A DNA stretch of 45,538 bases from Candidatus Faecalibacterium faecigallinarum (GTDB taxonomy: Bacteria > Bacillota > Clostridia > Oscillospirales > Ruminococcaceae), in assembly GCA_019119685.1 (NCBI GenBank), contig DWWN01000052.1, positions 1 through 45,538 on the forward strand, in the 5' to 3' direction. The stretch's first letter is position 1. Every line of letters begins with the position of its first letter. The position numbers and the translations under genes were made by a program. Of this stretch, positions 1 to 40,194 are shown piece after piece. A model generated the notes under the pieces. It saw nothing but the letters and a program-made list of their open reading frames with translations, was not told the origin of the DNA and searched no databases.

Positions 1-795
1 TATATGCCGAACGGCGTCAGGGTAAACTTCTTCGAGAAGGAGAGAGGTTCAAAGCGCGCTGTGAACATGCTCCTTAAGAAGCTGGCGGACAAGCCTTTCG
101 AGACAGAGTATCCCATGCCCAGCTTTGACAAGGTGGCTCCCAATCCGGCAGTGAAGGATCTGGCCCACGCAAAGATCGCCCTTGTCACATCCGGCGGTAT
201 TGTTCCCAAGGGAAATCCGGACCACATTGAGAGTTCCAGTGCTTCCCACTACGGTGAGTACGATATAGCAGGCGTCATGGATCTGACAGCCGAGACATAC
301 GAGACGGCTCACGGCGGATACGATCCGGTCTATGCCAATGAGGACGCAGACAGGGTGCTTCCTGTGGACGTGCTCAGAGACATGGAGAAGGAAGGAAAGA
401 TCGGCGAGCTTCATCATCTCTTCTATACAACAACAGGAAACGGTACAGCCGTTGCATCTGCCAAGGCTTTTGCGGACGAGTTTTCACAGAAACTGAAGGC
501 GGACGGCGTGGACGCAGTTATCCTGACCTCCACATGAGGCACCTGTACTCGTTGCGGTGCAACGATGGTGAAAGAAATTGAGAGGGCTGGCATTCCGGTA
601 GTACACATCTGTACAGTAACACCGATCTCCATGACCGTAGGAGCCAACAGGATCGTTCCGGCTATCGCGATCCCCCATCCCCTTGGTAATCCGGCCTTAA
701 GCCACGAGGAGGAGAAAGAACTCCGCCGCCATATCGTGGAGAAAGCCCTGACAGCTCTCACAACAGAGGTGGACGGCCAGACCATTTTCGATTAA
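1..795 (+). CDS. grdB: Glycine/sarcosine/betaine reductase component B, selenoprotein subunit (5' partial)
   Basis: This is the substrate-activating selenoprotein of the glycine reductase system: its selenol attacks the Schiff-base-activated amine and passes a carboxymethyl group to GrdA. The frame is open from base 1 to TAA at 793-795, interrupted only by TGA at 535-537. That codon sits in the motif TST-U-GTCTRCGATMVKE (Sec-x2-Cys-x2-Cys), the known active site of GrdB/GrdF/GrdH, so it is read as selenocysteine and not as a stop. About 264 C-terminal residues are visible; family members have roughly 430, so the N-terminal part lies upstream. Without that part or the GrdE-like partner subunit, glycine cannot be separated from sarcosine or betaine specificity. 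It is the first visible gene of an operon with trxB-trxA-grdA-grdC-grdD. A standard gene caller would split it at the TGA. Confidence 0.93.
538..560 (+). promoter_or_regulatory. Candidate bacterial SECIS hairpin after the grdB UGA
   Basis: Directly after the TGA at 535-537, GCACC (539-543) can pair perfectly with GGTGC (556-560), leaving a 12-base loop. Bacterial SECIS elements bind SelB and lie just downstream of the UGA inside the coding sequence, so position and shape fit. Clostridial SECIS elements are poorly conserved, so the assignment rests on position and the perfect five-pair stem only. Confidence 0.5.
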
Positions 796-827
796 AATGA
801 AAACAAAATGAAAAGGAGATGTTACCG

Positions 828-1772
828 ATGAGCAAAGTTTATGACGTAATCATCCTGGGCGCAGGCCCCGGTGGTCTGGCGGCAGGACTGTACGCAGGTA
901 GAAGCCGCCTTTCCACACTGGTCATCGAGAAGGGCCAGGACGGAGGACAGATCGCCATCACGGATGACATTGAGAACTATCCCGGCCAGATGGTGGAAGG
1001 GGAGTCAGGTCCTTCCCTGATCGCAAGAATGACACAGCAGGTGGAGAAGTTCGGCGCAGAGCGCGTTGCCGACACCATCAATGCAGTGGATTTCAGCGGC
1101 GAGATCAAGATCCTGAAGAGTGCGAAAAATGAGTACCAGGCAAAAAATGTGATCATTGCCACCGGCGCTTACGCACGCCCCATCGGATGCAAGGGCGAGG
1201 CTGAGTTCAGAGGAAAAGGCGTATCCTACTGCGCTACCTGCGATGCCAACTTCTTTGAGGATCTGGAAGTGTTTGTCGTAGGAGGAGGCGACTCCGCAGT
1301 GGAGGAGGCCATGTACCTGACAAAATTCGCCAGAAAAGTTACCATCATCCACAGAAGAGACGAGCTGCGCGCAGCCAAATCCATCCAGGAGAAGGCCTTC
1401 GCGAACCCGAAGATCGAGTTCTTCTGGGACAGCGTTGTGGAGGAGTTAGGAGGAGACGACATCCTCCAGTGGATGAAGGTGAAGAATGTCAAGACCGGCG
1501 AAGTGAGAACTGTGGAGGCGGACGAGGAAGACGGCATGTTCGGCGTGTTCGGCTTTATCGGAACCGTTCCCAACTCCAAGCTGTTTGAGGGCATCCTGGA
1601 TATGGACGAGAGAGGCTATATCCGCACCGATGAGGACATGCACACAAATATTCCCAATGTCTACGCAGTGGGAGATGTCCGCATCAAGAGCCTCCGTCAG
1701 GTTGTGACGGCAGCTGCGGATGGAGCCATCGCCGCTGTACAGGTGGAGAGAAGCCTGTCCGATTATTTTTAG
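828..1772 (+). CDS. trxB: NADPH-thioredoxin reductase of the glycine reductase operon
   Basis: A 314-residue FAD/NADPH thioredoxin reductase that supplies electrons to the neighbouring thioredoxin and on to the Grd selenoproteins. Visible features are the N-terminal FAD dinucleotide motif GAGPGG (residues 11-16), the redox-active CATC (Cys135/Cys138) followed by D, the NADPH-binding GGGDSAVEEA, and the C-terminal FAD motif ending in AVGDV. The length is normal for low-molecular-weight TrxB. An ATG at 819 is also in frame, but AAGGAG at 813-818 is well spaced only for the ATG at 828, giving the usual MSKVYDV start. The gap after grdB is about 30 bases, so co-transcription is likely. Confidence 0.95.
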   Translation: MSKVYDVIILGAGPGGLAAGLYAGRSRLSTLVIEKGQDGGQIAITDDIENYPGQMVEGESGPSLIARMTQQVEKFGAERVADTINAVDFSGEIKILKSAKNEYQAKNVIIATGAYARPIGCKGEAEFRGKGVSYCATCDANFFEDLEVFVVGGGDSAVEEAMYLTKFARKVTIIHRRDELRAAKSIQEKAFANPKIEFFWDSVVEELGGDDILQWMKVKNVKTGEVRTVEADEEDGMFGVFGFIGTVPNSKLFEGILDMDERGYIRTDEDMHTNIPNVYAVGDVRIKSLRQVVTAAADGAIAAVQVERSLSDYF

Positions 1773-1815
1773 AGACCAGGAAAAACATCTGGAAAGAAAA
1801 GGAGAGCAGAGAACA

Positions 1816-2133
1816 ATGATTGATGTAGATAAGACCACATTTGAAGAAGAAGTGCTGAAAGCTGACGGATATGTATTCGTTGATTTCTATGGAGACGGCT
1901 GTGTGCCCTGCCAGGCTCTTATGCCGAAGGTACATGAGTTTGCAGACACATACGGGGACAAGATCAAATTCACATCCCTGAACACCACAAAGGCGCGCCG
2001 CCTTGCCATTTCCCAGAAAGTTCTGGGACTTCCGGTAATGGCCATCTACAAGGATGGAGAGAAAGTCGAGGAGCTTGTAAAAGACGACTGCACACCGGAG
2101 AGCATTGAAGCGATGATTAAGAAATATCTTTAA
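1816..2133 (+). CDS. trxA: Thioredoxin with GCVPC active site, electron donor to glycine reductase
   Basis: A 105-residue thioredoxin-fold protein. The redox centre reads GCVPC (Cys29/Cys32) instead of the canonical WCGPC. From memory, this variant is typical of thioredoxins encoded with glycine reductase in amino-acid-fermenting Clostridia such as Eubacterium acidaminophilum. The cis-proline loop is present as GLPVMAIY. An AAAGGAGA ribosome-binding site precedes the ATG at 1816; an in-frame longer reading from 1720 would run through the end of trxB and is rejected. It lies 43 bases after trxB and 54 before grdA, consistent with a dedicated electron chain inside the operon. Confidence 0.95.
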   Translation: MIDVDKTTFEEEVLKADGYVFVDFYGDGCVPCQALMPKVHEFADTYGDKIKFTSLNTTKARRLAISQKVLGLPVMAIYKDGEKVEELVKDDCTPESIEAMIKKYL

Positions 2134-2187
2134 TCATAAAAATTTTAAAGCAGCAAAAAACAACATAAGAAAGGAGAACGCATAATT

Positions 2188-2658
2188 ATGGCTATTTTGG
2201 AAAACAAAAAAGTGATAGTTATCGGAGACCGTGACGGAATTCCGGGACCTGCCATTGCCGAGTGTGTAAAGACGGCTGGCGGGGAAGTGGTATTCGCGTC
2301 CACGGAATGCTTCGTCTGAACGAGCGCAGGCGCAATGGATCTGGAAAACCAGAAGAGAGTAAAGGAGTTTGCTGACGAGTACGGCCCGGAGAACCTTGTT
2401 GTAGTTCTCGGAGCTGCAGAGGGCGAGGCTGCAGGTCTTGCAGCTGAGACTGTTACAGCAGGAGATCCTACTTTCGCAGGTCCATTGACAGGAGTCCAGC
2501 TTGGACTTCAGGTTTATCACGTATGCGAGCCGGAGATGAAGGAAGAATTTGATGAGGCTGTCTATGATGAGCAGATCAGCATGATGGAGATGGTTCTCGA
2601 TGTAGATGATATCATTTCCGAGATGACAGCTATCAGAGAGCAATATTGTAAATTCTAG
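2188..2658 (+). CDS. grdA: Glycine/sarcosine/betaine reductase selenoprotein A
   Basis: Component A is the small carrier selenoprotein shared by glycine, sarcosine and betaine reductases. It takes the carboxymethyl group from component B as a selenoether and hands a ketene-like acetyl unit to component C, becoming oxidised and then re-reduced by thioredoxin. The frame runs from ATG 2188 (after AAAGGAGAA) to TAG 2656-2658, 156 residues, with an in-frame TGA at 2317-2319, which is codon 44. The context [13 protein letters not shown] is the diagnostic GrdA active site with Sec44. Annotating from the later ATG at 2335 would lose the active site. No hairpin as clear as that in grdB was found after this UGA. 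Confidence 0.96.
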
Positions 2659-2659
2659 G

Positions 2660-2688
2660 AGGGCGGGGCGGTGTCACCCCGCCGCCCT
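2660..2688 (+). other. GC-rich hairpin between grdA and grdC
   Basis: AGGGCGG (2660-2666) pairs with CCGCCCT (2682-2688), and further G-C pairs are possible inside. No T-run follows, so it is not a typical intrinsic terminator. Its place directly behind the stop of grdA, a carrier protein usually needed in high amounts, would suit partial termination or 3' protection of a grdA-containing transcript. That role is inference. Confidence 0.5.
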
Positions 2689-2726
2689 GCTTATTATGGA
2701 TAAAAAAGAAGAAAGGGGAAAAACCC

Positions 2727-4265
2727 ATGAACAGTGTGATCAAAGGGGCAAGCTATATTTTAGTACATACACCGGATATGGTTTTGTATAACGGAACAAC
2801 ACAGACGACAGAGCGCATCGTCAATCCTGAGTCGGAGTATCTGAAGGAAGTGCCGGAAAAACTCCGCTCATATGAGGAGGCGGTATCCTACTGGCCAAAC
2901 CAGACCTATATCGGCAACGTCCATCCGGAGGAGCTGGCGGAAGTGGAATTCCCCTGGTACGACAAGAAGATGGAAGGGGCGGACCGCTACGGAAAATTTG
3001 GCGAGATCATGCCTGAGGAAGAGTTCCTCCTCCTTGTGCAGGCCAGCGACATGTTCGAGGTGGTAAGACTGGAGAAGGGATTTGTCGCAGCCCATAAGGA
3101 AGCGCTGGCAAAAGATCCGGTGATCACAGAAGAGATCCTGGAAAGAGTGCACGAGGGTGTGGAGCTTTCCGAGATCGAGCAGTTTGTAAATGAAGAGCAT
3201 GCAGAAGGACTGTATTTCGATGGAAAACTGGTGGGCTGTGTGAAGGCCGCCCACGACATTGACCAGAACCTGTCTGCCCACGTGATGCACGAGAACCTGA
3301 TGAGCAAGGCGTCCAGCGTGCTGGCGCTCCTCTACGCGGTCCGCAACGCGGGCATCAAAAAGGAGGACGTGGAGTACGTCATCGACTGTGCGGAGGAGGC
3401 CTGCGGCGATATGAACCAGAGAGGCGGCGGCAACTTCGCAAAGGCGGCAGCAGAGGTGGCAGGACTTGTGAACGCCACAGGCTCTGACGCCAGAGGCTTC
3501 TGTGCGGCGCCTACCCATGCTGTCATTGAGGCGGCGGCTCTGGTGAAATCCGGCGCATACAAGACTGTTGTCGTGACCAGCGGCGGCTGCACGGCCAAGC
3601 TTGGTATGAACGGCAAGGACCACGTGAAAAAGGGCCTCCCCATCCTGGAGGACTGCCTGGGCGGATTTGCCGTTGTCATCACAGAGAACGACGGCGTAAG
3701 CCCGGAGATCGACCTGGATATGCTGGGACGCCACACAGTGGGAACAGGCTCTGCTCCCCAGGCTGTCATCGGCAGTCTTGTAGCTGACCCTCTGGACAGG
3801 GCGGGCATGAAGATACCGGATATCGACAAGTATTCACCGGAGATGCAGAACCCGGATATCACCAAGCCGGCGGGAGCCGGAGATGTGCCTCTGGCCAACT
3901 ACAAGATGATCGGCGCCCTGGCTGTGAAGAGAGGAGAGCTGGACCGCAAGGAGCTGGCAGACTTCACAAAGAAGCACGGACTGACCGGCTGGGCGCCCAC
4001 CCAGGGACATATCCCCTCCGGCGTGCCTTACATCGGCGTTGCCAGGGAGGATATCCTGGAAGGAAAGATCAAGAATGCCATGATCATCGGAAAGGGAAGC
4101 CTTTTCCTTGGCCGTATGACCAATCTTTTTGACGGTGTGTCTTTTGTCATCCACGGCAACACGGCAGACCAGGAGAAGAAAGAGAGCGGCGTCTCCGAAG
4201 AGGAAGTAAAAGGGCTGATCGCAAAAGCCATGAAAGAGTTCGCGGCAGCGCTTCTGGCAGAGTAA
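2727..4265 (+). CDS. grdC: Glycine/sarcosine/betaine reductase component C, beta subunit
   Basis: This 512-residue protein is the larger subunit of component C, which receives the acetyl unit from Se-carboxymethyl-GrdA and, with GrdD, converts it to acetyl phosphate. The fold belongs to the thiolase/ketoacyl-ACP synthase III superfamily. The stretch with GGGNFAKAAAEVAG, the cysteine in ARGFCAAPTHAVIEAA and the following VVVTSGGCTAKLGMNG resembles that fold's nucleophile region. The length matches the family. GAAAGGGGA precedes ATG 2727. It ends 13 bases before grdD, which carries its own AAAGGAGG site; tight coupling fits a two-subunit enzyme. Confidence 0.94.
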   Translation: MNSVIKGASYILVHTPDMVLYNGTTQTTERIVNPESEYLKEVPEKLRSYEEAVSYWPNQTYIGNVHPEELAEVEFPWYDKKMEGADRYGKFGEIMPEEEFLLLVQASDMFEVVRLEKGFVAAHKEALAKDPVITEEILERVHEGVELSEIEQFVNEEHAEGLYFDGKLVGCVKAAHDIDQNLSAHVMHENLMSKASSVLALLYAVRNAGIKKEDVEYVIDCAEEACGDMNQRGGGNFAKAAAEVAGLVNATGSDARGFCAAPTHAVIEAAALVKSGAYKTVVVTSGGCTAKLGMNGKDHVKKGLPILEDCLGGFAVVITENDGVSPEIDLDMLGRHTVGTGSAPQAVIGSLVADPLDRAGMKIPDIDKYSPEMQNPDITKPAGAGDVPLANYKMIGALAVKRGELDRKELADFTKKHGLTGWAPTQGHIPSGVPYIGVAREDILEGKIKNAMIIGKGSLFLGRMTNLFDGVSFVIHGNTADQEKKESGVSEEEVKGLIAKAMKEFAAALLAE

Positions 4266-4278
4266 AGGAGGGTGGAAC

Positions 4279-5430
4279 ATGGCTGATCATATTGAGAAAA
4301 TAATCGCCTCCACCTTTATGGAAATGGCAGAGGGACTGGAGAGCGGCCGGTTCGGGAAAAAGCCCAAGATCGCTCTCACCGGTATGGGAAGCGAACACGG
4401 CGAGGAGAACGCTATGGAGGCGGCTGTTGCGGCTGCCAGGGAAGGCATTGATGTGTATTACATCGGCACCCTTGAGGCGGAGGGCGTGACCACGGTGAAG
4501 GTGGCGGACGAGGATGAAGGACACAGGAAGATGGAGGAGCTCCTGAAGAACAAGGAAGTGGACGGGGCTGTCACCATGCATTTCCCGTTCCCCATCGGCG
4601 TCTCCACTGTGGGCCGGGCCGTCACCCCTGCCAGGGGAAGAGAGATGTTTGTGGCCACCACTACGGGTACCTCCAGCGCGGACCGCATTGAGGGCATGAT
4701 AAAAAATGCCATTTACGGGATCATCGCCGCAAAAGCCTGCGGAAAGGAGCATCCCACAGTCGGGATCCTGAACGTGGACGGGGCGCGTCAGACAGAGATC
4801 GCCCTGAAGCAGTTGAAGGAGAACGGGTACGATATCACATTTGCCGAGTCCGCCAGGGCGGACGGAGGCTGTGTCATGAGAGGAAACGATGTGCTCCAGG
4901 GGTCGGCGGATATTATGGTATGTGATTCGCTGTCCGGGAATATCCTGATCAAGATGCTCTCCTCCTTCACGACAGGAGGAAGCTATGAGGCGTCAGGATT
5001 TGGCTACGGCCCTGGTATTGGGGAAAATTATGAGCAGCTGGTGCTGATCATTTCCAGGGCTTCCGGCGCGCCTCTCATCAAGGGGGCGCTGAGCTATGCG
5101 GCTGAGCTGTTGAGAGGTAAGGTGTTTGATATCGCGAAGGAGGAGTTCGCCGCAGCCAAGAAGGCGGGCCTGGCGGATATCCTGGCAGCGAGAAAGGCGT
5201 CTGCAAAGCCTGTGGAGCAGGAGGAAGTGAAGGCGCCGGCCAAGGAACCGGTGACATCACAGATCGCGGGGATCGAGATCATGGATCTGGAGGACGGCGT
5301 GCGGGCTCTCTGGAAGCTGGGGATTTATGCGGAGAGCGGCATGGGCTGTACAGGGCCTATCATCCTGGTGTCTGACGCCAACCTGGGCAGAGCCCAGGAG
5401 GAGCTGAAGAAGGCCGGATATATCAACTAA
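4279..5430 (+). CDS. grdD: Glycine/sarcosine/betaine reductase component C, alpha subunit
   Basis: A 383-residue subunit related to PlsX/phosphate acyltransferases that completes phosphorolysis of the acetyl thioester to acetyl phosphate, the energy-conserving product later used by acetate kinase. Near the C-terminus is SGMGCTGPIIL with Cys357. This corresponds by position to the catalytic cysteine (Cys359) described for the E. acidaminophilum protein, recalled from the literature and not aligned here. An Ala/Lys/Glu-rich linker (about residues 295-325) precedes the C-terminal segment. The start ATG 4279 has a strong AAAGGAGGGTG site. It is the last gene of the operon, followed by a terminator. 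Confidence 0.94.
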   Translation: MADHIEKIIASTFMEMAEGLESGRFGKKPKIALTGMGSEHGEENAMEAAVAAAREGIDVYYIGTLEAEGVTTVKVADEDEGHRKMEELLKNKEVDGAVTMHFPFPIGVSTVGRAVTPARGREMFVATTTGTSSADRIEGMIKNAIYGIIAAKACGKEHPTVGILNVDGARQTEIALKQLKENGYDITFAESARADGGCVMRGNDVLQGSADIMVCDSLSGNILIKMLSSFTTGGSYEASGFGYGPGIGENYEQLVLIISRASGAPLIKGALSYAAELLRGKVFDIAKEEFAAAKKAGLADILAARKASAKPVEQEEVKAPAKEPVTSQIAGIEIMDLEDGVRALWKLGIYAESGMGCTGPIILVSDANLGRAQEELKKAGYIN

Positions 5431-34782: not shown

Positions 34783-36282
<1,500 letters not shown>

Positions 36283-36323
36283 ACGCAAAGGAAACCCAAA
36301 ATCAGAATATCCTGCCAGGAATG

Positions 36324-36356
36324 AAAGGGCCTCCGGCGAGAGCCGGGGGCCTTTTT
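36324..36356 (+). terminator. Intrinsic terminator after the GH1 gene
   Basis: GGCCTCCGGC pairs with GCCGGGGGCC around GAGA, with AAA before the stem and TTTTT after. Confidence 0.9.
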
Positions 36357-36467
36357 GCGTTTGAAACACTTGGCCCCTCCCAACCGTCTAACAGACAGAA
36401 AACAAACAGCGAGCCGAGAGGGAACAGGCGCCGCCCAACCGGCCACACACTTTGGGAGGTATTTACG

Positions 36468-36638
36468 ATGCTGTATATCTATGCTCTTGGTTGTGGTCTG
36501 GCCTGTCTGGTCCTTGCAGGGATCAGCAGCATGGAAACGGTGGACGTCCAGCCCGCCCGTGTGGCGGCGGAGATCGTCCTCTGGCCCGCCGCGCTGGCGG
36601 AGTACGCTGTCAAGCGGCTGGCCGCGAGGGGAGCATAA
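36468..36638 (+). CDS. Small membrane protein, 56 residues
   Basis: ATG 36468 follows a strong GGGAGG site and encodes 56 residues: a hydrophobic first segment (MLYIYALGCGLACLVLAGI), a short polar link, a second amphipathic or membrane stretch (AAEIVLWPAALAEYAVK) and a basic end. A terminator follows seven bases after the stop. No family was recognised. The ribosome-binding site and the terminator support a real gene; two small-sized neighbours of this type occur in the window (see 12201-12335), but they are not alike in sequence. Confidence 0.6.
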   Translation: MLYIYALGCGLACLVLAGISSMETVDVQPARVAAEIVLWPAALAEYAVKRLAARGA

Positions 36639-36644
36639 CGCTGC

Positions 36645-36678
36645 GGGGCGTCCGGCATTGCCGGACGCCCCGAGTTTT
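36645..36678 (+). terminator. Intrinsic terminator after the small membrane protein
   Basis: GGGGCGTCCGGC pairs perfectly with GCCGGACGCCCC around a three-base loop (ATT), followed by GAGTTTT. It marks the left border of the AT-rich stretch. Confidence 0.85.
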
Positions 36679-36681
36679 AAC

Positions 36682-37002
36682 TTACTGTGTCAGATTATAG
36701 AAAAAATTAGTTGGAAGCATTTCAAAATCGCTTTGCCTGATAAGAAATGTATAGTGGTACATATAGTCATTTCGCAACCCGATGGTAGGAATCAAGCCAC
36801 GCGCCGAGCGCATCGGCCCGCTCGCGCTGCGCACCCGGATTCGGTAGGGAATATGAGCGGCATGTAATTTGGCTCCGGCCTTGGCTTTATCAGCTAAACT
36901 GTAAGTCCAGTAAACTTCAACGTAACGGTCGAACAAAAAACGGTAAAGCTGCGCGAGTAGAGCCGAAAATATCTTTTTGATAGAGAGATTAAAAATATTC
37001 AT
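36682..37002 (-). CDS. Hypothetical protein, 106 residues
   Basis: A basic, partly hydrophobic protein. Its order of elements (YVEVYWTYSLADKAKAGAKL, then an IPYRIRVRS strand, and a final MYHYTFLIRQSDFEML) resembles small Clostridia proteins that begin with a helix-strand unit and end in an [EY]Y-[IF]-V-K-x-D-[FY]-E pattern, similar to DUF2007-type ferredoxin-like folds. This is weak likeness, not a family call. The start at 37002 has no clear ribosome-binding site. Composition is mixed: higher GC in the middle, AT-rich near its start. It may be real but is uncertain. Confidence 0.5.
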   Translation of the reverse strand: MNIFNLSIKKIFSALLAQLYRFLFDRYVEVYWTYSLADKAKAGAKLHAAHIPYRIRVRSASGPMRSARGLIPTIGLRNDYMYHYTFLIRQSDFEMLPTNFFYNLTQ

Positions 37003-37139
37003 TGCTTAGAAGATCTTTATAAAAGATAAAAATAAATTATAAATATACTATAGCATAGAAGGATGAAAAGTAAATATCGTTTGGTGTTACCCAAAAATAA
37101 CATAGGACGACGGATTTCGTGAATTATTTGCTTTATCTC

Positions 37140-37168
37140 TGGACACTTTGAAAGAAAATGCTTATAAT
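37140..37168 (+). promoter_or_regulatory. Promoter of the RRNPP-type regulator
   Basis: TGGACA (37140-37145) and TATAAT (37163-37168) have a 17-base spacer, 66 bases before the regulator start codon. Confidence 0.75.
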
Positions 37169-37233
37169 ACAAAATATAGAATGACCTGCTATCTGACAAT
37201 CTGGTGGCACTATATAGTGATTGGGAGGGCTAT

Positions 37234-38151
37234 ATGCAAAATTTTCTTTTAGGGGAGTACATCAGGCAGCGGCGGTTAGATTTAGGTTTGACACAGGCAG
37301 AAGTATGCAGTGGCATTTGTGAGCCAATTACCCTTTCCCGGCTAGAAAATGGCAAGCAGACACCTAGCCGGAATCGGATCAATGCAATTTTGCAGCGTTT
37401 GGGATTACCAGACGACCGCTATTATGCACTGCTATCTCCCAATGAATTAAAGATAGAAGCGCTTAAAAAAGAAATTGTTGGGTGTAATGTAACAGAGCGA
37501 ATAGAGGAAGGATTTGACAAAATCGCTCAGCTAGAGAAAATTGCAAGCGCAGATGATTCGCTTGTTCAGCAATTTATTTTGCGTTCTAAAGTGTTGTTAG
37601 GCCGTATCGACAAACGATATTCCAGTAAAGAACAGCTTGAAATGCTAAAACAAGCACTTCAACTAACGGTTCCTCGTTTTAGTCTTTGGGAAATTGAAAA
37701 ATTCCTCTATACGACGGATGAAATAAAAATTATTAATCAAATTGCAATAGTTTATTCTGATATAGGAGACAATAAAAAAGCGGCTGAAATTTATCATCAA
37801 GTGCTTCGGTATATGAGAAAACACTTTGACGAGAATGTGATATCGGCAGGAAATTGGCCATTAATTCTTTATAATTATGCGCGAGTGTTAGATTTATGTC
37901 ATCGATATGAAGATGGAGCCGAATGTGCTAAGGAATGCAGAGAAAAATGTGTTAAGTACGGACATTATCAATTCTTGCCAGACTGCCTTGAAATTGAGGC
38001 AGAGTGCAAATACTTCCTTGGAAAAACGAAAGAAAGTATAGATTTATACCGTCAGGCTTATTATCTTTGTAAGGTGATTGGATATCAAGACAGTTTGGAC
38101 ATCATTAAAAAAGAAGCAAAAGAATATCTTAATATTGAATTTGAAGATTAA
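37234..38151 (+). CDS. PlcR/Rgg-like (RRNPP) transcriptional regulator: HTH plus TPR
   Basis: The 305-residue protein starts with an XRE-type helix-turn-helix (about residues 6-62). LGEYIRQRRLDLGLTQAEVC and GICEPITLSRLENGKQTPSR match PlcR-like regulators. The rest is all-helical with TPR-like repeats (for example GDNKKAAEIYHQVLRYM and GKTKESIDLYRQAYYLC), the part that in RRNPP proteins binds a re-imported signalling peptide. A GTG at 37204 is in frame, but ATG 37234 follows GGGAGGG. Its 3' end overlaps by four bases a convergent gene for a small secreted peptide. Composition is AT-rich, unlike the surrounding genome. Peptide control is inferred from fold and neighbour. Confidence 0.85.
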   Translation: MQNFLLGEYIRQRRLDLGLTQAEVCSGICEPITLSRLENGKQTPSRNRINAILQRLGLPDDRYYALLSPNELKIEALKKEIVGCNVTERIEEGFDKIAQLEKIASADDSLVQQFILRSKVLLGRIDKRYSSKEQLEMLKQALQLTVPRFSLWEIEKFLYTTDEIKIINQIAIVYSDIGDNKKAAEIYHQVLRYMRKHFDENVISAGNWPLILYNYARVLDLCHRYEDGAECAKECREKCVKYGHYQFLPDCLEIEAECKYFLGKTKESIDLYRQAYYLCKVIGYQDSLDIIKKEAKEYLNIEFED

Positions 38152-38387
38152 GCAATATCGCCTCTGCCGGGACAGGCATCAAAAGGTGTGAACTCGGGTT
38201 CATTCGGGAAAGTGCACTTTTTGCTAATATCATAAAAAGGCAGTAAAGAGGATTTATCAGATAGAGAAATATAAATGGATATATTTTGATGTTGCGTAGA
38301 TGTTTCAAATATAGTGTTTGAAAATGATTTTGTGAATGTTGAAAAAATTAGAAAAGTCGAAGTAAAAAATAAAATAAACCGTTTCAT
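38148..38387 (-). CDS. Candidate signalling-peptide precursor, 79 residues, secreted
   Basis: The minus-strand frame begins at ATG 38387 after a strong GAAGGAAGG site and ends at TAA 38148-38150, overlapping the regulator's stop. The N-terminus (MKRFILFFTSTFLIFSTF) is a clear export signal with likely cleavage near residue 23. The mature part of about 55 residues is polar and ends in FTPFDACPGRGDIA. A short exported peptide beside an RRNPP regulator is the layout of known pairs; convergent order resembles TprA/PhrA of pneumococcus, where the active peptide comes from the C-terminus. Sequence likeness to a known pheromone was not seen. The active region (perhaps the last 7-10 residues) is inference. 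Confidence 0.65.
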   Translation of the reverse strand: MKRFILFFTSTFLIFSTFTKSFSNTIFETSTQHQNISIYISLSDKSSLLPFYDISKKCTFPNEPEFTPFDACPGRGDIA

Positions 38388-38419
38388 AAAAACTTCCTTC
38401 CTTCAATAATATCTAACTT

Positions 38420-38425
38420 AGTATA
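38420..38425 (-). promoter_or_regulatory. Possible -10 of the peptide gene
   Basis: On the minus strand TATACT lies about 33 bases before the start codon. No good -35 is 17 bases upstream, which would suit a promoter that needs the neighbouring regulator; this is inference. Confidence 0.4.
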
Positions 38426-38553
38426 CAGTACCTGTTGAAAACAAACCATATCGCGTGGTGTTTATTTTCTACAACATAGAACGATAGGATGATTGCTTTT
38501 TGTATATTAAAACAAATTTTGACATATAGTAGTAGATTGGGAAGGTGAACATC

Positions 38554-38805
38554 ATGTTGCAGCCGAAATTGTTGAAGGTAGAGCCGGTCGAGCCAAGCAA
38601 GCTGCGTCTCTTTTATGAAACGGGGGAAGTCAAACTGTTCGATGTGGGGCCGTATATCAGCGGGCCCTGGTACGGAGAGTTGAGAGACCGGGCGTATTTC
38701 CGAACGGTCCGGGTGCTGCCGGGCGGCGGAGGCATCGAGTGGGTGAATGGACAGGACATTGCACCCCACGAATTGTATGAACAAAGCATACCGGCCTGTG
38801 GATGA
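38554..38805 (+). CDS. DUF2442 domain protein
   Basis: An 83-residue protein with the DUF2442 pattern: LLKVEPVEPSKLRLFYETGEVKLFDVGPYI, then the middle and the C-terminal IEWVNGQDIAPHELYE. These small proteins occur singly or next to toxin-like DUF4160 genes, but no such partner is here. The start could be GTG 38545 or ATG 38554; GGGAAGG lies about eight bases before the latter. It is back in high-GC composition, so it marks the right side of the AT-rich island. A terminator follows. Confidence 0.85.
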   Translation: MLQPKLLKVEPVEPSKLRLFYETGEVKLFDVGPYISGPWYGELRDRAYFRTVRVLPGGGGIEWVNGQDIAPHELYEQSIPACG

Positions 38806-38813
38806 GGCCGGCT

Positions 38814-38838
38814 GGCCGGGGGCGTTCCCCGGCTTTTT
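38814..38838 (+). terminator. Intrinsic terminator after the DUF2442 gene
   Basis: GCCGGGG pairs with CCCCGGC around GCGTT, followed by TTTTTT. Confidence 0.9.
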
Positions 38839-38871
38839 TGGTTTTGCGGGGCGGAAATTTGCCAAAAGCAC

Positions 38872-38900
38872 TTTCCAACAGTAAAGCAAAATGCTATACT
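38872..38900 (+). promoter_or_regulatory. Promoter of the CDF transporter gene
   Basis: TTTCCA (38872-38877) and TATACT (38895-38900) are 17 bases apart, and TGC directly precedes the -10. Confidence 0.65.
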
Positions 38901-38985
38901 AAAAGAGCGCAGCCGCGGCAAAGAGCCAAAACTGCCAACAAAAAGTAGAAAGATAGAAAATTTGTACAGGAGGGAGATCGTTTCC

Positions 38986-40194
38986 TTGATCCAGCTGCTG
39001 ATCCATACTTTTGTCAAGGATTATCAAAATAAACAGGACCCCGCGGTCCGGGAGCGCTATGGCCGTCTGGCCGGCGTCGTGGGCGTCATCTGCAACCTGC
39101 TGCTGTTTGTGGGCAAGGTGACGGTGGGCACCCTGTTCGGCTCCATTGCCATCACGGCCGACGCCGTCAACAACCTGTCCGACGCTTCGTCCAGCGTGGT
39201 CAGCCTGGTGGGCTTCAAGCTGGCGGCCAAGGGCCCCGACGCCGAGCACCCCTACGGCCACGCCCGCTATGAATATGTGGCCGGGCTGGCCGTCAGCACC
39301 ATGATCATGGCCATCGGCCTCAGCCTGCTGAAGGAGTCGGTGGTCAAGGTCATCCACCCCGAGGCGGTGGGCTTCAGCCTGCTGACGGTGGGGGTGCTGC
39401 TGGCTTCCATCGCGGTCAAGCTGTGGCTCAGCCGGTTCAACCGCACCGTCGGCAACGCCATCCACTCCGACACGCTGCTGGCCACCGCCGCCGACAGCCG
39501 CAACGACGTCGTTTCCACCGGCGTGGTGCTGCTCTCTGCCGTGCTGTGCAAGGCCACCGGCCTGGACATCATCGACGGCATCATGGGCGTGGGCGTGGCG
39601 GCCTTTATCCTGTGGTCGGGCTGGGGCCTGGTGCAGGACACCCTCAGCCCCCTGCTGGGAGAGAGCCCCTCCCCCGAGCTGGTGGCCGAGCTGGAAAAGA
39701 AGGTGCTGTCCTACCCGCGGGTGCTGGGGGTCCATGACCTGATGGTCCACGATTACGGCCCGGGGCGGCAGTTCGCCTCTTTGCATGTGGAGTTCCCCAC
39801 CGAGGTGGACCCGCTGGACGCCCACGACCTCATCGACAACATCGAGCGGGATGTCCGGGAGGAAATGCACCTGCAGCTGACTATTCACTACGACCCCATC
39901 GTTACCTCCGACGCCCGCGTGGGGGTGCTGCGGGCCCGCCTGAACCAGGAACTGGCCCAGATCGACCCCGCGCTTTCCATCCACGACCTGCGGTTGGTGC
40001 CGGGGCCCACCCATACCAACGTCCTGTTTGACCTGGTGTTCCCGGCGGGGTACCGCGGCGACCAGCAGTCCGTCCGGGCCCGCCTGGAGGAATTCGTCAC
40101 CGCCCAGGATATGTCGTACATCTGCAAGATCAAGGTGGAGCAGAGTTATGTCGCCGCCCCGCCCGCATCCCATGCCAAAAAGGGGGAGAACTGA
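38986..40194 (+). CDS. Cation diffusion facilitator (CDF) metal transporter
   Basis: A 402-residue CDF protein exporting a divalent metal (Zn, Mn, Fe or Co) in exchange for protons. Six membrane segments are followed by a cytoplasmic metal-sensing dimer domain. Metal-site motifs are ADAVNNLSDASSS in segment 2 and ATAADSRNDVVST in segment 5, with the family signature HPYGHARYEYVAG between. The cytoplasmic part is longer than in the smallest CDFs and is marked by VLGVHDLMVHDYGPGRQFASLHVE. TTG 38986 is chosen because AGGAGGGAG lies nine bases upstream; another TTG (38962) precedes that site. It overlaps the aminotransferase gene by one base. Confidence 0.88.
   Translation: MIQLLIHTFVKDYQNKQDPAVRERYGRLAGVVGVICNLLLFVGKVTVGTLFGSIAITADAVNNLSDASSSVVSLVGFKLAAKGPDAEHPYGHARYEYVAGLAVSTMIMAIGLSLLKESVVKVIHPEAVGFSLLTVGVLLASIAVKLWLSRFNRTVGNAIHSDTLLATAADSRNDVVSTGVVLLSAVLCKATGLDIIDGIMGVGVAAFILWSGWGLVQDTLSPLLGESPSPELVAELEKKVLSYPRVLGVHDLMVHDYGPGRQFASLHVEFPTEVDPLDAHDLIDNIERDVREEMHLQLTIHYDPIVTSDARVGVLRARLNQELAQIDPALSIHDLRLVPGPTHTNVLFDLVFPAGYRGDQQSVRARLEEFVTAQDMSYICKIKVEQSYVAAPPASHAKKGEN

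Follow-up and report, generated by a model that had tools for sequence, protein, structure and literature searches.

In the pneumococcus, the TprA and PhrA genes converge. TprA/PhrA and TprA2/PhrA2 of Streptococcus pneumoniae each combine a PlcR-related regulator with a small peptide gene on the opposite strand, with a C-terminal heptapeptide as the signal and lanthipeptide genes nearby, as described in the sections of PMC5436883 and PMC13361665 that treat them. Streptococcal Rgg/SHP loci, in the corresponding sections of PMC13361665, likewise have a peptide-sensing RRNPP regulator beside RaS-RiPP operons. The candidate subfamilies obtained with RRNPP_detector share one signature, a TPR receptor of 250-500 aa beside a small secreted peptide; according to its main text (PMC10075063), this survey covered complete genomes and chromosomes, and the BGC-linked systems in its section 12 belong to families of other orders.

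The locus described here bears the same signature and lies in a stretch of 45,538 nucleotides (the window), which is contig C68 of a 2.06 Mb assembly in 71 contigs. It comes from Faecalibacterium, a very abundant genus of the human gut. We think it highly probable that the window holds a self-inducing RRNPP cassette of the PlcR/TprA kind, made up of a putative activator, a Phr-like pheromone and two operators. Judged by its domains, its predicted fold, the putative propeptide and the arrangement of the genes, the window pair belongs to RRNPP quorum sensing and is PlcR/TprA-like. Our literature search found no paper naming both Faecalibacterium and RRNPP, and the terms Faecalibacterium, Oscillospir- and Ruminococc- do not occur in the main text of any of three surveys of RRNPP systems (PMC10075063, PMC9765709 and PMC12700828). 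Because the pair belongs to the RRNPP group and no earlier description was found, the system adds a new member to RRNPP signalling, none having been found described in Faecalibacterium by literature search. The family may coincide with one of the 21 new subfamilies of RRNPP_detector, a comparison made with the main text of that survey only.

The regulator and its convergent propeptide gene

The regulator gene (37,234-38,151, plus strand) encodes an RNPP/PlcR-type HTH-TPR protein of 305 aa. Its likely start is the ATG at 37,234, which is preceded by GGGAGGG; the ORF from the GTG at 37,204 would give 315 aa. The initial annotation had called the product a PlcR/Rgg-like HTH-TPR protein, and Pfam corroborates this with HTH_31 at the N-terminus (38.9 bits, cut-off 27) and RNPP_C at the C-terminus (29 bits, cut-off 26.5), the HTH and RNPP/TPR domains being placed as in RRNPP regulators. 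An NCBIfam scan of the regulator gave no match above any cut-off, and PADLOC returned weak HTH-level matches alone (HTH_VI, RmrA). The best match in both sequence and fold is PlcR of the Bacillus cereus group. PlcR is the top PDB match of the single sequence (phmmer, E 9.7e-9), and a 30-sequence profile aligns with it over nearly its full length (E 9.5e-20). The AlphaFold2 model of the regulator (pLDDT 92.1) gave five PlcR chains as the top Foldseek matches, led by the PlcR-PapR7-DNA entry 3u3w, with TM-scores to the query of 0.58-0.63 for the PlcR chains; ComR, a Listeria regulator and Rgg2 rank after them. The modelled fold is that of known RRNPP receptors. Identity to PlcR is, however, only 19-22% in the Foldseek alignments, and papR gene order and the PlcR box differ from the window system. 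The regulator also matches PlcR better than Rgg, and represents another regulator branch than that of the Rgg/SHP loci.

Upstream of the regulator is a promoter-like TGGACA-17-TATAAT (37,140-37,168, plus strand) with 11 of 12 consensus bases; such matches are frequent, the consensus scan of 36,500-39,000 having found 14 sites against 5.8 expected from shuffles. The same genome carries a paralogous regulator on contig C57, 52% identical to that of the window, for which the tests applied found neither a convergent peptide nor an operator. As a separate observation, a gene divergent from the paralogue (locus L020, 8,513-9,910) encodes a protein with a Peptidase_S41 domain whose beginning resembles that of a lipoprotein.

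Convergent to the regulator is a gene for a putative propeptide of 79 aa (38,148-38,387, minus strand). As initially annotated, the regulator ends within the stop of this minus-strand gene: the regulator stop occupies 38,149-38,151 on the plus strand and the peptide stop 38,148-38,150 on the minus strand, and the coding sequences overlap by 4 nt, TTAA. The description of the product as a 79-residue secreted protein with a strong ribosome-binding site also held, with GAAGGAAGG preceding the ATG and a K/R n-region followed by a hydrophobic core at the N-terminus; secretion is judged here by hydropathy and n-region rules only. By these rules the regulator has the adjoining small propeptide gene with a secretion signal that is expected of RRNPP systems. 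The convergent order had been likened to TprA/PhrA, and an opposite-strand convergent peptide gene is indeed present. This likeness is one of gene arrangement, and the peptides and the bacterial order are different. A 79-aa Sec-type propeptide as the signal gene also sets the window apart from the Rgg/SHP loci.

Of 51 homologous regulators, 29 have a convergent secreted-looking ORF; among 271 control ORFs of the same loci, 4 do, so that the arrangement is commoner than expected by chance. The controls are the longest non-overlapping frames, some of them surely antisense rather than genes, and the 51 regulators include close copies (G025a, G012b and G016b; L057 and L059; L110 and L115; L064 and L065) and are therefore not 51 independent cases. 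The filter called for 35-100 aa, a ribosome-binding site, hydropathy >2.2, a K/R n-region and a stop no more than 40 nt away; it was fixed after a first look at the cassettes and then run alike on regulators and controls. The window's 4-nt overlap with the regulator recurs in 21 of the 29 ORFs. The 51 regulators are those of the window, of stretches of genus genomes and of loci from wider contig scans. We dropped L095 and L096 (duplicates of L036 and L039) and G014b (a fragment), and left out G016:C2 (whose 64-aa peptide and 69% match are those of G012a), repeats of the G loci (L032-L035, L046, L050, L055, L063) and partial or weak matches (L011, L012, L018, L019, L068-L087, L101-L106, L111-L113).

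The expectation that each homologue would have its own convergent exported ORF, as first proposed, holds for the 29 and fails for 22. The failures in Faecalibacterium are the paralogue of the window genome, G002, G014a and G025b. At the expected peptide position, G002 and G014a have in-frame tails (TCDAMQGVGDMG and YSELKGLGTTEF, respectively) downstream of a stop, and the presence of these tails at the right place suggests that the two peptide genes have decayed; the G025b frame stays open over 96 codons, without a start that resembles a signal sequence. Two of the four controls that pass, an ORF of 312 aa in L057 and one of 305 aa in L060, have the length of a regulator and each adjoin a family regulator, so they are probably family regulators themselves. 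Each of these second regulator-sized ORFs (L057, 7,010-7,948; L060, 6,960-7,877) has its own convergent secreted peptide, so that both loci probably hold tandem cassettes. A tandem second family regulator lies directly upstream of the first in L044 (5,065-5,979) and L038 (4,859-5,806). Regulator matches occur in 7 of 31 genus genomes, and the family, going by the titles of the records, ranges over Faecalibacterium, other Oscillospiraceae and Lachnospiraceae MAGs. A contig profile scan with alignment A1 gave 56 loci; a contig scan with the single window protein found no relative.

Aligning the peptide C-termini, another check that had been proposed, revealed a register, DAxPGxG, common to the window and three relatives. 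The C-terminal decapeptide of the window, DACPGRGDIA (38,151-38,180, minus strand), is in register with DAFPGGGEAL (G012a), DAMPGVGDMG (identical in G025a, G012b and G016b) and DAMPGDGNLA (G007), sharing 5, 6 and 6 of the last 10 residues with G012a, G025a and G007, respectively. Shuffled window peptides reach 6/10 at a rate of 5e-6, which is a post hoc value, the likeness having been spotted before being tested; among 841 frame ends in the window, only the propeptide end reaches 6. On this post hoc test the propeptides have a conserved C-terminal stretch, the putative pheromone, as RRNPP systems do. The predicted signal is the decapeptide itself or its last seven residues, PGRGDIA (38,151-38,171, minus strand). 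In the sections of PMC5436883 on these peptides, PhrA and PhrA2 were used as the C-terminal heptapeptides LDVGKAD and VDLGLAD, which makes PGRGDIA a first guess for the signal; by this analogy the mature signal is perhaps PGRGDIA, with a putative cut position just before it. Two other minus-strand ORFs were considered as the peptide and rejected, one of 60 aa (37,017-37,199), which spans an operator, and one of 59 aa (38,129-38,308); both are unlike the relatives' peptides in position and C-terminus.

An alternative is that the small ORF encodes an unrelated secreted peptide, or is a chance ORF, and is not the cognate signal. In its favour, a search of 31 genomes gave no relative of the window propeptide over its whole length (best non-self E 0.05), and the likeness to the relatives' peptides is confined to its start and C-terminus. 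Against it, the ORF fits the family in where it lies, in its overlap with the regulator, in its ribosome-binding site and operator, and in the register of its C-terminus, and we regard an unrelated ORF as very improbable. The initial view of the pair as a candidate quorum-sensing cassette is supported in silico by the proportion of regulators with a convergent ORF, by the operators and by the C-terminal register.

Operators, promoters and a candidate target

Two 37-bp operators were found in the window. The operator on the peptide side (38,448-38,484) has 0 mismatches to the pattern ATATCGNNNNGTGTTN10AACAYARAACGA, and that on the target side, upstream of the regulator (37,074-37,110), has 1. 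The pattern was composed by eye from a few cassettes, and so matches in those cassettes are there by construction, which is not true of its absence elsewhere: with up to 3 mismatches, 31 genus genomes gave 14 matches at 13 sites in 5 genomes, all in cassettes, against 1 match (in G026) for a reversed control pattern. No match was seen in 100 shuffles of the window. At the same tolerance the operator is absent from G002 and G014, whose peptide genes look decayed.

The peptide-side operator lies 22 nt from a -10-like TATACT (38,420-38,425, minus strand), for which the scan gave no -35 match. On the target side, a -10-like TATAGT preceded by TG (37,047-37,052, minus strand) lies 21 nt from the operator and has a poor -35 only (TTTACT-16-TATAGT, 9/12 in the consensus scan). 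Among the 14 operator-like sites listed, which include half an operator with 8 mismatches in G014a and to which G025b and G002 contributed none, the -10-like hexamer begins 22 nt past the operator in 13 (TATACT, TATCCT, TATGCT, TACAAT or TAAAAT) and 21 nt past it on the target side of the window. In the relatives, too, no -35 box was seen by eye at the operator promoters. Promoters of this build would suit a peptide-loaded activator. When cassettes were searched blind for a site common to both sides, 12 of 30 loci beat all 40 of their mononucleotide shuffles; of these 12, L167 is the G012a sequence again and L099 wins by a single base. The best locus was L040 (32/37 against 23 in shuffles), and the window pair scored 25/37, equal to the best of its 40 shuffles. 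The window operators are poor palindromes (7/17 and 9/17, p 0.75 and 0.16); that of L036 is strongly palindromic (14/17, 0/2000 shuffles).

Computation shows the genes and their overlap, the operators and their spacing, the fold and the island; for the cassette we infer export, processing and import of the peptide, activation rather than repression, and p106 (described below) as the target. The regulator would be expressed from its own promoter, and the propeptide, going by its hydropathy, would leave the cell through Sec and be cut down to its last seven or ten residues (PGRGDIA or DACPGRGDIA) as the signal. An Opp-type transporter would re-import this signal, which would bind the TPR domain; the genome encodes three SBP_bac_5 proteins above cut-off, at most candidates for this import. 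The peptide-loaded regulator would bind both operators, which are followed at 21-22 nt by -10 boxes that have no good -35 partner, and would switch on the propeptide gene, as positive feedback, together with the divergent p106.

The regulator could instead be a peptide-released repressor, with operators that block transcription until the peptide arrives. The operators end beside the -35 position, a place from which a bound regulator could act either way. The listed sites, however, have by eye no good -35 hexamer 16-18 nt from the -10, the window's target side offering the TTTACT above alone, and this fits dependence on an activator; PlcR, the best match of the regulator, is also named an activator in its PDB entry. 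We consider repression improbable and keep to an activator.

The -10 box on the target side faces p106, a gene of 106 aa divergent from the regulator (36,682-37,002, minus strand). Its ATG lies ~45 nt beyond this box, and its ribosome-binding site looks weak by eye. p106 matched nothing in Pfam (threshold 0.001) or in PADLOC. Stretches resembling it at 68-79% identity occur in G023, G019 and G013 (3 other genus genomes of 61 searched), with an internal stop in the G019 stretch and in one of the two from G013. In G013, one stretch occupies the site of the window gene and is read the opposite way; it lies where two contigs end, of which one holds the glycosidase and the other the CDF gene that border this site. 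p106 is the best target candidate, and possibly a bystander. DUF2442 (from 38,545 or 38,557) was ruled out as the operator target, because it is present at the L140 site without the island and because the -10 box of the adjoining operator points away from it.

RaS-RiPP operons beside related regulators

In relatives, the operator upstream of the regulator faces a divergent operon. In G012b, G007 and L036 a precursor-like ORF of 24-25 aa (MEV...C) is followed by a radical-SAM-like gene, and in G025a and G012a the same type of gene follows MYTVTFSNEELEEMKANDAVVIVSCDDDNGHRLY as the precursor-like ORF; a filter for ribosome-binding sites likewise retained the precursor ORFs of G012b, L036 and G012a. 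Pfam assigns Radical_SAM in L036, G012b (L023) and G025a (L021), and the radical-SAM calls in G007 and G012a are made from sequence likeness. The enzyme gene has one for an ABC exporter downstream of it in L036 and one for an MFS protein in G025a. Scored against the ryptide maturase model NF040899, the enzyme of G025a gave E 2.7e-104 and 349 bits, below the curated cut-off of 600; the L036 and G012b enzymes gave weaker matches, to TIGR04463. A ryptide-like maturase in G025 is a further likeness to the Rgg/SHP RaS-RiPP loci. Radical_SAM genes adjoining regulators were also confirmed in L040, L045, L048, L051 and L053; in L038 such a gene adjoins a second, tandem regulator-like ORF, in L039 and L056 an ABC exporter takes the place of the radical-SAM gene, and in G016b the radical-SAM gene is present with no operator before it. 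As the neighbours differ at other loci, RaS-RiPP control appears frequent, not general.

The window cassette has no precursor or radical-SAM gene beside its operator, going by the ORF list and the ribosome-binding-site filter, and no lantibiotic operon was recognised by eye among the window ORFs at 33-43 kb. The Rgg/SHP arrangement of a radical-SAM gene and precursor divergent from the regulator is thus seen in the relatives and not in the window, where RiPP genes are missing. In contrast to TprA/PhrA, the relatives have RaS-RiPP genes, and in the window neither these nor, by eye, lanthipeptide genes were recognised.

The absence of a precursor and a radical-SAM gene would suit a remnant, namely a former part of a RaS-RiPP element that lost its biosynthetic operon and signals to nothing useful, with p106 there by accident. 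Such a remnant would share its anatomy with the self-inducing cassette and differ from it in function. Also in keeping with it, p106-like stretches occur in genomes that have no regulator match (G013, G019 and G023), and the peptide genes of G002 and G014a have apparently decayed. However, the window retains an intact regulator and peptide gene, two intact operators and two intact -10 boxes, and its p106 frame is open; G002 and G014, with their decayed peptide genes, have no operator within 3 mismatches. We hold a remnant to be rather unlikely and favour a self-inducing cassette.

A wider picture of this cassette is possible, though we offer it tentatively. Oscillospirales, including Faecalibacterium, may share a large PlcR-type signalling family, hitherto undescribed as such, in which the pheromones are strain-specific (predicted as PGRGDIA, PGGGEAL, PGVGDMG, PGDGNLA and others), the 37-bp operator is conserved and the RaS-RiPP cargo is partly on integrative elements. 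The window switch would then have split from its cargo and been re-wired to the 106-aa gene, the pheromone-operator module being free to move without the genes under its control. If the quorum-sensing reading is right, RaS-RiPP operons of gut commensals should be inducible with short synthetic peptides, the operator would offer a route to what each system controls, and the window cassette would be a signal switch still in place after its antibiotic-like cargo was lost.

The AT-rich island and its site

The initial annotation had placed the pair on an AT-rich island, and this was borne out. GC falls from about 0.64 to 0.34-0.45 around 36.65-38.54 kb, and the island is missing from the site in relatives. 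From the GC drop, the alignment ends and the sites without it, the island measures ~1.9 kb (36,673-38,542, limits approximate); a sequence scan places a terminator-like site at 36,644-36,672. GC3 is 0.31 in the regulator and 0.27 in the peptide gene against 0.88-0.92 in several other window ORFs, a listing in which the nearest neighbours are represented by antisense frames. The island lies between the glycosidase region (the glycosidase ends at 36,282) and DUF2442, which the window keeps and which the island precedes. Glycosidase-side alignments of relatives stop at 36,280-36,295 and, in L142, at 36,597; the alignment with L140 resumes at 38,543.

We compared 16 loci at this site, of which seven have both flanks visible; the remaining nine show the CDF side alone within the compared stretch or have different neighbours. 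Glycosidase and CDF transporter genes (names assigned from translations) without window genes between them are found in L141 (G021), L142 (G024), L143 (G014), L144 (G001), L145 (G015) and L148 (G023), and L140 (G008) has DUF2442 preceded by a small ORF, with no island. The island was probably acquired. These empty sites, like the two operators, the -10 spacing and the relatives' RaS-RiPP neighbours, go beyond what the initial annotation had described. Across Faecalibacterium, the site (36,282-38,962) is variable: it may be empty or be occupied by DUF2442 with a small ORF, by an ORF of 56 aa, by a gene like p106 or by the island.

A phage origin of the window island was considered and found unsupported. 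Viral contigs gave 5 loci, matching over the HTH only (best E 6e-6), and a plasmid scan gave one weak record. Five 'phage' records matched, the best of which, H1 (MT837704.1, unannotated and marked 'UNVERIFIED'), is identical to the G012a cassette in the stretches compared and was taken for bacterial DNA. Close to the G012a cassette itself (L022, 9,046-14,633) are a phage-type integrase and a MobA-type relaxase, which suggests that this cassette sits on a mobile, integrative mobilizable element.

Elsewhere in the window (4-5,430) is an operon resembling glycine/betaine/sarcosine reductase, with gene names that we presumptively assigned from motifs. It also has thioredoxin-like and thioredoxin-reductase-like genes, and it contains two in-frame UGA codons that likely encode selenocysteine, in the contexts TST-UGA-GTC in the GrdB-like frame and ECFV-UGA-TSAGAM in the GrdA-like frame.
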